Assembly (NCBI RefSeq): GCF_000179575.2
Contig: NC_015636.1
Location: 124,001 to 188,000 of the forward strand
Reading direction: 5' to 3'
Origin: Methanothermococcus okinawensis IH1
Lineage (GTDB): Archaea > AGJL01 > Methanococci > Methanococcales > Methanococcaceae
Length of the DNA stretch: 64,000 nt
Every line of letters starts with the position of its first letter. The first letter of the stretch is position 1. A program made the translations under genes and the position numbers. Shown piece after piece: positions 16,543-24,576 of this stretch. The notes beneath the pieces were generated by a model. That model worked only from the letters and a program-made list of their open reading frames with translations. It did no database searches and was not told where the DNA came from.

Positions 16543-16860
16543 TTAGTCGTATTCTCTCCATGTATAGCCACATTTTGTGCATTTATAAAACCTTGTTTCA
16601 GGTTCATCAGCACATCTTGTTTGCTGCAACCACCAGTAAGCTTCCATGTTTCCACATTTTGGACATTCTATCCTTGTAGTTGGCAAGGTATTCACATCTT
16701 CAATTACCACAATTTCTTGTTTATTTGATTCTATTTTTTCTTTTAATTCGTATGATTCATCAGTCTGTTCTAAATCCTCTTCATAACCACATACTGTGCA
16801 TACCAGTTTTCCATCTTTTGGAAGCATTATATTTTTACATTTTGGACAGAATTTTACCAT
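16543..16860 (-). CDS. tfs: Transcription elongation/cleavage factor TFS
   Basis: TFS stimulates the intrinsic RNA cleavage of archaeal RNA polymerase and rescues backtracked complexes. The 105-residue protein has two zinc ribbons: FCPKCKNIM with CTVCGYEE at the N-terminus, and ECPKCGNMEAYWW with KCTKCGYTW at the C-terminus. The catalytic acidic tip is present as TRCADEPETRFYKC. GGTGATAAT precedes the ATG. The start region is duplicated 168 bases upstream (second copy at 17023-17039), with a hairpin cluster in between. Confidence 0.95.
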   Translation of the reverse strand: MVKFCPKCKNIMLPKDGKLVCTVCGYEEDLEQTDESYELKEKIESNKQEIVVIEDVNTLPTTRIECPKCGNMEAYWWLQQTRCADEPETRFYKCTKCGYTWREYD

Positions 16861-17039
16861 ATTATCACCTTGATGTATTTAATATATTTTTATCAAAAAT
16901 AAAGGCTCCAAAACGAACGAAGTGAGTTTTGGACTTTCGAAATCTTTGATTTCGAGTAATAAAATTCCGAAGGAATTTTATCTGATTGATGCAACCTTTT
17001 TTAAAGGTTGCGGGTGGAATATTACCATATTATCACCTT
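16855..17039. repeat. 17-bp direct repeat flanking a cluster of perfect hairpins
   Basis: TACCATATTATCACCTT occurs at 16855-16871, where it is the reverse complement of the TFS start codon and ribosome site, and again at 17023-17039. Between the copies lie four stem-loops: CCAAAAC/GTTTTGG (16908-16932, 11-base loop), TCGAAATC-TTT-GATTTCGA (16937-16955), ATAAAATTCC-GAA-GGAATTTTAT (16959-16981) and GCAACCTTT-TTT-AAAGGTTGC (16991-17011). The last three are perfect with 3-base loops. The second copy still has a ribosome site and ATG on the minus strand, opening only 16 codons. This looks like an inserted element with duplication of its target, or a structured RNA. Confidence 0.75.
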
Positions 17040-17112
17040 AATATATTTAAATTTATATTTTCATTAAAAATTAAAGGTTTAAGGGTTTTTATCAAAATTT
17101 AGCGTTTATTTT

Positions 17113-17529
17113 TCATTTTAATTTTAGGTAATTTAAATAATCTTCAAATATTTTTTTATGGTCAAATGCCAAATTTAAATTTTTAACCTCTTCGATTTTA
17201 AATAATTTAGCCTCTTTGGCATCGTCAGCTCCTTTGATAGTTCCTTCAATAGGTTCCAACACATAAACAACAGAAACTGTATGGCCCCTCGGGTCTCTAT
17301 TTGGGTCTGAATAAACTCCAAGAAGGTGTTTTATTCGAGTTTTTAAACTTGTTTCTTCCTGAACTTCCCTTATAACAGCATTTTCTGTGGTCTCCCCATA
17401 CTCTACAAAGCCTCCTGGAAATGCCCAAAAATCTTTAAAAGGTGGATTTTTTCTTTTTATCAATAGTATTTTATCGTCAATCTGAACTATGCCATCAACA
17501 GTTAATGATGGTGATTTATATTTGCACAT
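17113..17529 (-). CDS. Nudix hydrolase (ADP-ribose pyrophosphatase-like)
   Basis: The 138-residue protein contains the full Nudix box: GGFVEYGETTENAVIREVQEETSL (G-x5-E-x7-R-E-x2-E-E). The preceding LLIKRKNPPFKDFWAFPGG and the single-domain size match the archaeal ADP-ribose pyrophosphatase group, but the substrate cannot be proved from sequence. GATGATAAT precedes the ATG. It is divergent from lysS. Confidence 0.9.
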   Translation of the reverse strand: MCKYKSPSLTVDGIVQIDDKILLIKRKNPPFKDFWAFPGGFVEYGETTENAVIREVQEETSLKTRIKHLLGVYSDPNRDPRGHTVSVVYVLEPIEGTIKGADDAKEAKLFKIEEVKNLNLAFDHKKIFEDYLNYLKLK

Positions 17530-22296: not shown

Positions 22297-24576
22297 ATGA
22301 TAGATAAATGTCCAATTTGTAAAGGAACAGGAAAAAAAATTGTTGGCTATAAACCATGTCCTGAATGTGAGGGAACAGGATATATTGAAGAATTCAATAC
22401 AAAATCTCAGTTTAAAGGAGCTCCTAAAAAATCCAAATACGATTTGGATGTTGCAGAAGTGCCGTGCCCAAACTGCAAAGGAACAGGAAAGATTCCAGAA
22501 TATGATACCTGTGATTATTGTGGAGGAAGCGGAAAAATCGTAAAATGCGATAAATGCGGAAAATATATTGGAAAATATCCACAGGATAAGGACAAAACAT
22601 TGTGCGATAAATGTAGAAAAGAGGAGGAAGAAAAAAAGAAAAACTTGAAAACAGTCTATATATTGGATAATCTATGTGGAATGAATGATTTGGAAGAAGG
22701 TAAATTTTACAAAGGTAAAGTATCAAGAACTGAGAAATACGGTGTTTTTATTTCATTAAACGAGCAAACAAGAGGATTGTTGAGAGCTCGTGAAATGGTA
22801 GGAAAAAGATTAGGGGACTTTAAGATAGGGGATGAAGTTGTCGTGCAGGTATCTGAATTAAAACCACAAAAGAGGGAAGTGGATTTTAGATATATTCCAA
22901 TTGCAAACTATAAAATTGAAAAACTTGAAAAGAGCATCCCATTAACAACAATAAAGGAAATCACCGATAAAGGCATACTTGAAATGAGGGATGAAGTGGT
23001 CCATATTCAAGGGGAAATTATTCAAATCACTCAAACGCCAGGTCCAACAATATTTACCATTACCGATGGAACAGATACGGCATGGATAGCAGCATTTGAA
23101 GTTGCAGGTTTAAGAACTCACCCTGAAATAATGGTAGGGGATATTGTAGATGTGGTAGGAACTGTTTCCATAAGAGATGGAAAACTTCAAATTGAACGAA
23201 TAAAATTAGTAAAACTGGAAGGGGAAGAGGCAGACATAGTAAAAGAAAAGATAGAAAGAGAATTGGATAAAAAATCAGAACCATATAGTGATATAGAATT
23301 CCTTGTGGATAGTCCAATACTTGAAAAATTGAGACCTAAAATGACTGATGTGGCAAAAAGGATAAGAAGGGCAATATTAGATGGCAAACCTGTAATTATA
23401 AGGCATCATGCAGATACCGACGGTTACTGTGCAGGTATAGCACTTGAAAAAGCCATACTACCCATATTAAACGAATTTTCAATAGATAATGATGCACAAT
23501 GGCATTATTTTAGGAGAAGTCCATCTAAGGCACCATTTTATGAATTGGAAGATATTACAAAAGATTTAGTATTTTCATTGGAGGATAAATTAAGGTTTGG
23601 TCAAAAGATGCCATTGGTTGTATTAACGGATAATGGAAGCACCAATGAGGATATACCTGCAATATCTCAGGCTGAGGCTTACGATGTAGATGTTGTTGTT
23701 GTAGATCACCACTATCCAGGAGAGGTGGTAGATGGTAAAGTGGAAGTGGATGAATATGTAAGAGCTCATGTAAATCCATACCTTGTTGGTGGTGATAGTA
23801 ATTTAACCGCAGGGGTTTTAGCAACAGAAGTTGCAAGGATGATAAATAAAGATATTACTGATGAAATAAAGCATCTTCCAGGTATAGCTGTGGTTGGAGA
23901 CCATGCAAAAGGAAAAGAAGTAGAAGATTATATAAAAATAGCATTGGAAGATTTAACAGAATGTAGTAAAAAATACGGTAGTGGAAAAGAATATACAAGA
24001 GAGGATTTAGATAAAATTGGATTATGCATGGATTTTGAGGCATTTTATTTAAGGTTTATGAATGGAAGGGGTATTGTAGAGGATATACTTGGAATAAATA
24101 AAAAGGAATTTCATAGGCATGAAAAACTAATTGATATATTATACAATAGGGCAATGCAAATGGTAGATAGGCAAATGAAAGCCGTAATTCCTGCCATAAA
24201 AACCGAAAAACTTGATAATGGAATAATACTAAATACATTGGATGTAGAAAAATATGCCCATAAATTTACATTTCCAGCACCCGGAAAAACATGTGGCTTT
24301 GCCCATGATTCCATAGTTCAAAAATATGGGGAAGAAACACCAATAATAACAATAGCTTATGGTCCGGATTTTGGTGTTGTTAGGGCAACTGATGCAGTTA
24401 GCGAAAGATTTAATTTCAACCTAAATATTATAATAGAGCAGCTTATAAAAGAGATTCCAGAGGCTTCCTTAGATGGGGGAGGTCACGAGTGCGCTGGAAG
24501 TTTAAAGTTTGTTGAAGGATTAAGAGAAAAAGTATTAAGTAAATTTATAGAAATCATTAAAGAAATGAAATATTAG
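22297..24576 (+). CDS. DHH-family phosphoesterase with DnaJ-type zinc finger, S1 and OB domains (archaeal RecJ-like)
   Basis: A 759-residue multidomain protein. Residues 1-110 hold CxxCxGxG repeats (CPICKGTGK, CPECEGTGY, CPNCKGTGK, CDYCGGSGK) and a CDKCGK/CDKCRK zinc pair. An S1 RNA-binding domain follows (GKFYKGKVSRTEKYGVFISL), then an OB-fold segment (VVHIQGEIIQITQTPGPTIFTITDG). The C-terminal half is the DHH phosphoesterase with RHHADTDGYCAG, VVVVDHHYPG, GVVGDHAKG-like VVGDHAKGKE and the DHHA1 end SLDGGGHECAGSLKF. RecJ-like archaeal proteins act as nucleases in replication or RNA decay; the S1 and zinc-finger parts favour RNA or single-stranded DNA. It stands alone. Confidence 0.9.
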   Translation: MIDKCPICKGTGKKIVGYKPCPECEGTGYIEEFNTKSQFKGAPKKSKYDLDVAEVPCPNCKGTGKIPEYDTCDYCGGSGKIVKCDKCGKYIGKYPQDKDKTLCDKCRKEEEEKKKNLKTVYILDNLCGMNDLEEGKFYKGKVSRTEKYGVFISLNEQTRGLLRAREMVGKRLGDFKIGDEVVVQVSELKPQKREVDFRYIPIANYKIEKLEKSIPLTTIKEITDKGILEMRDEVVHIQGEIIQITQTPGPTIFTITDGTDTAWIAAFEVAGLRTHPEIMVGDIVDVVGTVSIRDGKLQIERIKLVKLEGEEADIVKEKIERELDKKSEPYSDIEFLVDSPILEKLRPKMTDVAKRIRRAILDGKPVIIRHHADTDGYCAGIALEKAILPILNEFSIDNDAQWHYFRRSPSKAPFYELEDITKDLVFSLEDKLRFGQKMPLVVLTDNGSTNEDIPAISQAEAYDVDVVVVDHHYPGEVVDGKVEVDEYVRAHVNPYLVGGDSNLTAGVLATEVARMINKDITDEIKHLPGIAVVGDHAKGKEVEDYIKIALEDLTECSKKYGSGKEYTREDLDKIGLCMDFEAFYLRFMNGRGIVEDILGINKKEFHRHEKLIDILYNRAMQMVDRQMKAVIPAIKTEKLDNGIILNTLDVEKYAHKFTFPAPGKTCGFAHDSIVQKYGEETPIITIAYGPDFGVVRATDAVSERFNFNLNIIIEQLIKEIPEASLDGGGHECAGSLKFVEGLREKVLSKFIEIIKEMKY

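Follow-up and report, generated by a model that had tools for sequence, protein, structure and literature searches.

We interpret the hairpin-rich block beside the TFS-like gene of Methanothermococcus okinawensis as a non-coding mobile DNA element of the double-hairpin type that inserted long ago and would move by annealing to a target and copying it, a reading to which we assign a probability of roughly 60%. Its identity as a mobile double-hairpin element is well supported by sequence comparison, and the annealing-and-copying mechanism is a hypothesis drawn from a signature of nucleotide changes at one foot of the element. The window, i.e., the whole stretch of DNA analyzed, comprises 64 kb (bases 124001–188000 of contig C2, 1,662,525 bp, one of the two contigs of the genome). 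In the element, a short linker joins hairpin A to hairpin B; at this locus, two additional hairpins separate them.

The block lies between the TFS-like gene (16543–16860, minus strand; Zn_ribbon_TFIIS and Zn_ribbon_RPB9 domains), which is intact and on the hairpin A side, and a NUDIX gene (17113–17529, minus strand), which directly adjoins TFS in relatives with an empty site. Based on its dispersed homologues and on orthologous TFS sites without it (L010, L011), the putative inserted element spans 16905–17011 in orientation A to B on the plus strand, as do all hairpins given here. Hairpin A (16907–16933), matched by R1, a covariance model built on the simple form of the element, has an 8-bp stem (TCCAAAAC/GTTTTGGA) with inner AC/GT pairs and a GAA triloop. 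Middle hairpin 1 (16937–16955; 8 bp, triloop) is an extra module absent from simple members and present also in G008 (L074, L076) and G002 (L077), and middle hairpin 2 (16959–16981; 10 bp, triloop) is bracketed by AGTAA and TCTGAT in the motif alignment. Hairpin B (16991–17011) has a 9-bp stem (GCAACCTTT/AAAGGTTGC) and a TTT loop, and the target duplication begins at its foot. On recheck, the three perfect triloop stems of 8, 10 and 9 bp listed in the initial annotation proved correct in position and pairing; the 7-bp stem said to precede them exists and is longer, at 8 + 2 bp with the inner AC-GAA-GT of hairpin A. The elevated G+C content that it noted likewise holds (0.37 in the element vs. 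0.16–0.17 in the flanking spacers). Triloop hairpins with stems of at least 8 bp number six in the window, three of them in the block; three within 80 nt occurred in 0 of 60 Markov-resampled windows, and the block folds better than 200 of 200 shuffles on both strands (z of −4.6 and −6.1). An isolated 8-bp triloop hairpin (ATCCAAATACGATTTGGAT) lies at 22431–22449 of the window.

A direct repeat of ~60 nt flanks the element (16844–16904 and 17012–17074, plus strand, counted from the B-proximal start). Its ungapped part covers 54 nt at 78% identity, and the 17-bp direct repeats described earlier are real, being merely the best-conserved core of this longer repeat. The proposal that the repeat duplicates the TFS start region is borne out by the left copy, into which TFS reads on the minus strand and which holds the first codons, start codon and ribosome-binding site of the gene plus ~45 nt of AT-rich upstream DNA; the right copy carries a partial TFS start and upstream DNA. 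Insertion at the 5′ end of TFS would have duplicated ~60 nt, so that the A side kept the complete gene and its start region and the B side received a partial copy. At 17012–17022 (plus strand) the right copy opens with a tail zone, GGGTGGAATAT, against GGACAGAATTT in the target: A>G, C>T and A>G, then one T>A. The TFS start codon is ATG in both copies here and GTG in both in G008, and at the L204 locus the copies (GGAGCAATT vs. GGAGTAATT) are alike within each genome. Because the two copies evolve together within a genome at both loci, gene conversion between them is suggested.

A functional role in TFS expression, as a structured leader RNA or as a terminator, would account for the strong folding and for the retention of the block in G008 at the same site. 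However, the same element occurs after tRNAs, gene ends and other unrelated targets, the TFS site is empty in L010 and L011, and the hairpins change freely between species. In addition, the proximal repeat copy already supplies TFS with a ribosome-binding site and with AT-rich, promoter-like DNA, so the hairpins need not lie in the TFS leader, and the stems are almost devoid of G-U pairs. A role in TFS expression therefore seems very improbable from these comparisons, and the TFS leader, one of two readings in the initial annotation, was set aside given the occurrence of the same element at unrelated genes.

The TFS block is instead a complex member of a dispersed non-coding family, whose simple form is hairpin A plus hairpin B (~60 nt; AGGTTCCAAAACGAACGAAGTGAGTTTTGGACTTTNGATNGCAACCTTTTTTAAAGGTTGC) and occupies about a dozen loci in the M. 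okinawensis genome. A DNA search of this genome found hairpin A, often with hairpin B, elsewhere (16 partial matches), and R1 returned 31 matches, some of them weak or antisense shadows. At E ≤ 1e-4, R1 matched 19 of 36 genomes of the order Methanococcales, in all five genera: three Methanothermococcus, one g2 genome, every g3 and g4 genome and most genomes of the second family, with no match at this threshold in nine other Methanothermococcus and six g2 genomes. Weak matches with an A-type hairpin only (L206, L207) were excluded from the count of full elements, and the census is based on the searches, the stretches around matches and a 400-kb sample of G000. Of 19 strong hairpins detected de novo in this sample, 6 have flanking repeats (three of these belong to one tandem array), vs. 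none at 19 control positions; in the g2 sample G012, 6 hairpins were detected, along with one repeat resembling a local tandem. No Rfam family matches the element at gathering score, and no plasmid or phage record matched it by BLAST.

Occupancy varies among relatives. The TFS site is filled in M. okinawensis and in Methanothermococcus sp. S013_52 (L009 = L074), and NUDIX directly follows TFS in L010 and L011. The start of the MTH1187-like gene is filled only in G008 and empty in G000, G002, G007 and G009; the hisF end is likewise filled in G008 and empty in the same four genomes; and the atpD end is filled in G000 and empty in G002, G007 and G009. Loci L335 and L345 of the other family likewise carry an element at the atpD end, and the tail is identical (AGGGGGAA); either the insertion is very old or this site has been chosen more than once. 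Together, the further copies in this genome and the variable occupancy, both of which the initial annotation had proposed to look for, the copies in other genera and the many duplicated targets support its other reading, a miniature mobile element with target duplication.

The hairpins themselves also differ between genomes. Hairpin A is present at one orthologous gene start in three species (L083, L094, L081), where hairpin B has its simple form in G008, has been lost in G000 and contains nested hairpins in G002; this looks like rapid internal turnover at an inherited site. The AGTAA-hairpin-TCTGAT module occurs in either orientation, alone at L077 and L079, at 16937–16990 in the window, and with further hairpins nested in the hairpin B loop at L075, L081, L090 and L092; it looks like an independent hairpin family. 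A further hairpin family (GGTATCC...CCATAGGGGC...GCCCCTATTGG...GGATACC) adjoins A-B elements of the order's second family (L297–L301, L303, L304, L306, L309, L313). At L258:16976 in G000, a hairpin that does not belong to the A-B family (ATAAAATCCTATGGGATTTTAT) lies between perfect 19-nt direct repeats (ATTTCATTCAGGTGATTGA).

Target duplications flank members of the family. Among 61 elements, the left and right flanks of the same element aligned with a median score of 26, vs. 9.9 for mismatched pairs, a control that includes orthologous loci. In 51 clear cases the duplication has a median length of 50 nt (quartiles 43–55) and runs from the foot of B to A, with median gaps of 0 nt to B and 3 nt to A; it starts within 5 nt of hairpin B in 49 of the 51. 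Most duplications in genome G021 are no longer clear. The polarity is fixed: in clear cases the protein gene or tRNA is left intact on the A side, and the duplication starts inside that gene. The elements target the 3′ halves of tRNAs, the 3′ ends of genes (atpD, hisF, argF, rpS15 and others) and gene starts (TFS, ksgA, trpG and the MTH1187-like gene); protein names other than TFS and NUDIX are those we presume from our reading of the translations. Elements follow tRNA genes at L002, L003, L202, L203, L210, L078, L080, L191, L195, L171, L174, L199, L303, L306 and L351, and at tRNA targets the duplication starts in the T-loop, at GTTC|RAATC. A classical DDE transposase moving a MITE, with the 50-nt repeats as unusually long staggered-cut duplications of the kind seen in the IS1634 group, would fit the narrow duplication length, the dispersed copies and the empty sites. 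However, the element lacks terminal inverted repeats, hairpins A and B differ in sequence, and both the one-sided change signature described below and the consistent polarity to the gene speak against it; we regard this explanation as decidedly unlikely.

In G021, A-B elements at L155, L157, L162, L166 and L170 lie beside or within a CRISPR-repeat-like sequence (GTTAAAATCAGACCCTTAGGGGGATGGAAA), which is apparently their duplicated target. Tandem arrays were also found, e.g., of 132-nt units (three, following tRNA-Ser) and of 93-nt units (four, at L180); unequal exchange between repeats would be expected to give such arrays. Those at L180, L189, L190 and L331 (93- or 109-nt units) comprise hairpin B and a gene 3′ end without hairpin A, and at L190 two array copies have different gene ends, suggesting exchange between paralogues.

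The changes at the foot of hairpin B are directional. Comparing the right copy with the left, A>G plus C>T changes outnumbered the reverse changes 48:5 in the first 11 nt after B in a first count, vs. 47:46 in the rest of the duplication. The excess was also present in nineteen elements fetched after the rule was set (21:6 at the B foot, p = 0.006, vs. 38:36) and, after removal of redundant loci, in gene targets (34:7 in the first 11 nt, p = 2.5e-5, vs. 64:60 beyond) and tRNA targets (21:2, p = 6.6e-5, vs. 15:17 beyond). These p values are optimistic, since the elements depend partly on one another through inherited insertions, possible sequence exchange between tRNA sites and concerted evolution of the repeat copies. 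Summed over gene and tRNA targets, the ratio is 55:9 at the B foot vs. 79:77 elsewhere; the directional changes concentrate at positions 1–8 after B, and the A side has no excess (20:16). A>G and C>T are the changes that still pair with the other strand of the target as G·T. We infer that the element moves as single-stranded DNA, or serves as a template for a switching polymerase, and that a tail of ~5–10 nt 3′ of hairpin B anneals to a new target with G·T mismatches tolerated. The annealed tail would then be extended by copying ~50 nt of the target and the strand rejoined at hairpin A, so that the right-hand copy would begin with the original tail sequence. RNA pairing or single-strand deamination could likewise produce the tail signature. 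An element-borne tail is favored over random deamination because in the tRNA group an identical tail, GTTTGAATC, recurs over targets reading either GTTCAAATC or GTTCGAATC across two families.

Pairing in the hairpin arms is close to strictly Watson–Crick. In 97 distinct sequences, 98.6% of cells in the three helices are paired, a percentage inflated by the fitting of the alignment (A3) to the model. Both sides changed in 350 cells, and a one-sided change giving a pair such as G-U occurred in only 14. RNA helices normally retain many G-U pairs, and their near absence here suggests that identity of the arms is maintained in the DNA itself, whether through copying of one arm from the other or through recognition as DNA hairpins. 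DNA hairpins are favored over RNA because the arms covary almost without G-U pairs. Perfect arms of this kind are also compatible with hairpin-primed template switching during replication, which would copy hairpins elsewhere without dedicated mobility and leave duplications by chance. Modular gain and loss of hairpins inside B (the L204 locus in G000 vs. G008; L081, L090, L092), the tandem arrays (L180, L189, L210) and the lack of a Y1 transposase point the same way. The fixed order and orientation of A and B, the narrow duplication length and the constant start in the tRNA T-loop, however, look too regular for chance, and we consider template switching by itself rather unlikely.

Pfam searches for candidate enzymes gave no Y1 transposase (PF01797) in G000, G019 or G021; among 22 genomes, matches were confined to G002, G008 (a fragment) and G020. 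Reverse transcriptase (PF00078) was absent from G000 and from 21 of the 22 genomes searched, the one match being in G019. Neither enzyme has a match in the M. okinawensis genome, and both were rejected as drivers there. TnpB-type proteins (PF07282) exceed the cut-off in 15 of 19 element-bearing genomes vs. 2 of 17 others, the exceptions being G017, G024, G030 and G033 on one side and G011 and G027 on the other. Insertion could accordingly be mediated or guided by RNA, with a transcribed element whose 3′ tail wobble-pairs with the target and a reverse transcriptase or TnpB-like nuclease acting there; this would fit the TnpB co-occurrence, and A>G and C>T exactly preserve wobble pairing with the complementary strand of the target. 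Against this, the stems are almost without G-U pairs and reverse transcriptase is nearly absent from the genomes searched. TnpB co-occurrence follows phylogeny; moreover, G017 and G033 carry elements without TnpB, and G027 has ten PF07282 matches and no elements at E ≤ 1e-4. The right ends (3′ flanks) of TnpB genes, compared by eye with hairpins A and B, bear no resemblance to them. Insertion through RNA is unlikely on this evidence, and we retain the movement of a DNA element by annealing and copying as the preferred reading.

We place the element among the small palindromic mobile repeats. It behaves like a MITE or a double-hairpin element (DHE) yet departs from the features that define MITEs, REPINs and DHEs. 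Insertion sequences of the IS1634 group have long, variable target duplications and are protein-coding with inverted repeats; the element shares the long duplications, whereas it measures ~60–110 nt and has neither a protein-coding gene nor inverted repeats. REP/REPIN sequences, associated with RAYT (Y1) transposases, are likewise extragenic pairs of short palindromes, but here A and B are different sequences with long flanking duplications. REP/REPIN or IS200/IS605-derived PATEs would be expected to insert without target duplication, unlike this family, and to have a Y1 (HUH) transposase in the genome, which was not found in M. okinawensis; nor was the reverse transcriptase that a retroelement or SINE-like origin would call for. 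Archaeal MITEs, known from Sulfolobus, Halobacterium and Haloquadratum according to the parts of a review consulted here (PMC10969869), in which no Methanococcales MITE is named, are similarly small, non-coding, multicopy and scattered in intergenic DNA with target duplications. In contrast, A and B are separate palindromes rather than terminal inverted repeats, the duplications have a median of 50 nt (n = 51) instead of 2–10 bp, and among the candidates looked for (Y1, and TnpB-type elements whose ends were compared by eye only and were not similar) there is no cognate transposase or autonomous relative sharing ends. DHEs of Allomyces mitochondrial DNA and related repetitive hairpin-forming elements also consist of two adjacent hairpins and are short, non-coding and dispersed with copy numbers varying between close relatives, and the element resembles them in these respects, including presence or absence between relatives. 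Unlike the Allomyces elements, reported to have no flanking duplications (PMC2800124), it resides in archaeal chromosomes and duplicates ~50 nt of its target. Searches of the open-access literature for M. okinawensis and the repeats of Methanococcales, and for hairpin elements and long target duplications in general, retrieved no account of such a family, although an earlier one elsewhere is possible.

The one-sided A>G/C>T signature in the first target nucleotides after B is new in this analysis. Combined with the ~50-nt duplication and the sparing of the gene on the A side, it fits no described transposition pathway checked here. Tentatively, the element may represent a class that has neither a gene nor inverted repeats, selects targets by a short 3′ tail with G·T tolerance and copies ~50 nt while sparing the gene; should this reading hold, such an archaeal class might possibly be previously undescribed, a suggestion about which we remain somewhat doubtful. 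The insertion signature makes the mechanism directly testable. The family accounts for partial tRNA and gene-end duplications that annotation could mistake for genes, terminators or regulatory RNAs and, if our reading is true, well-studied hyperthermophilic methanogens would harbor an order-wide family of mobile hairpin DNA.
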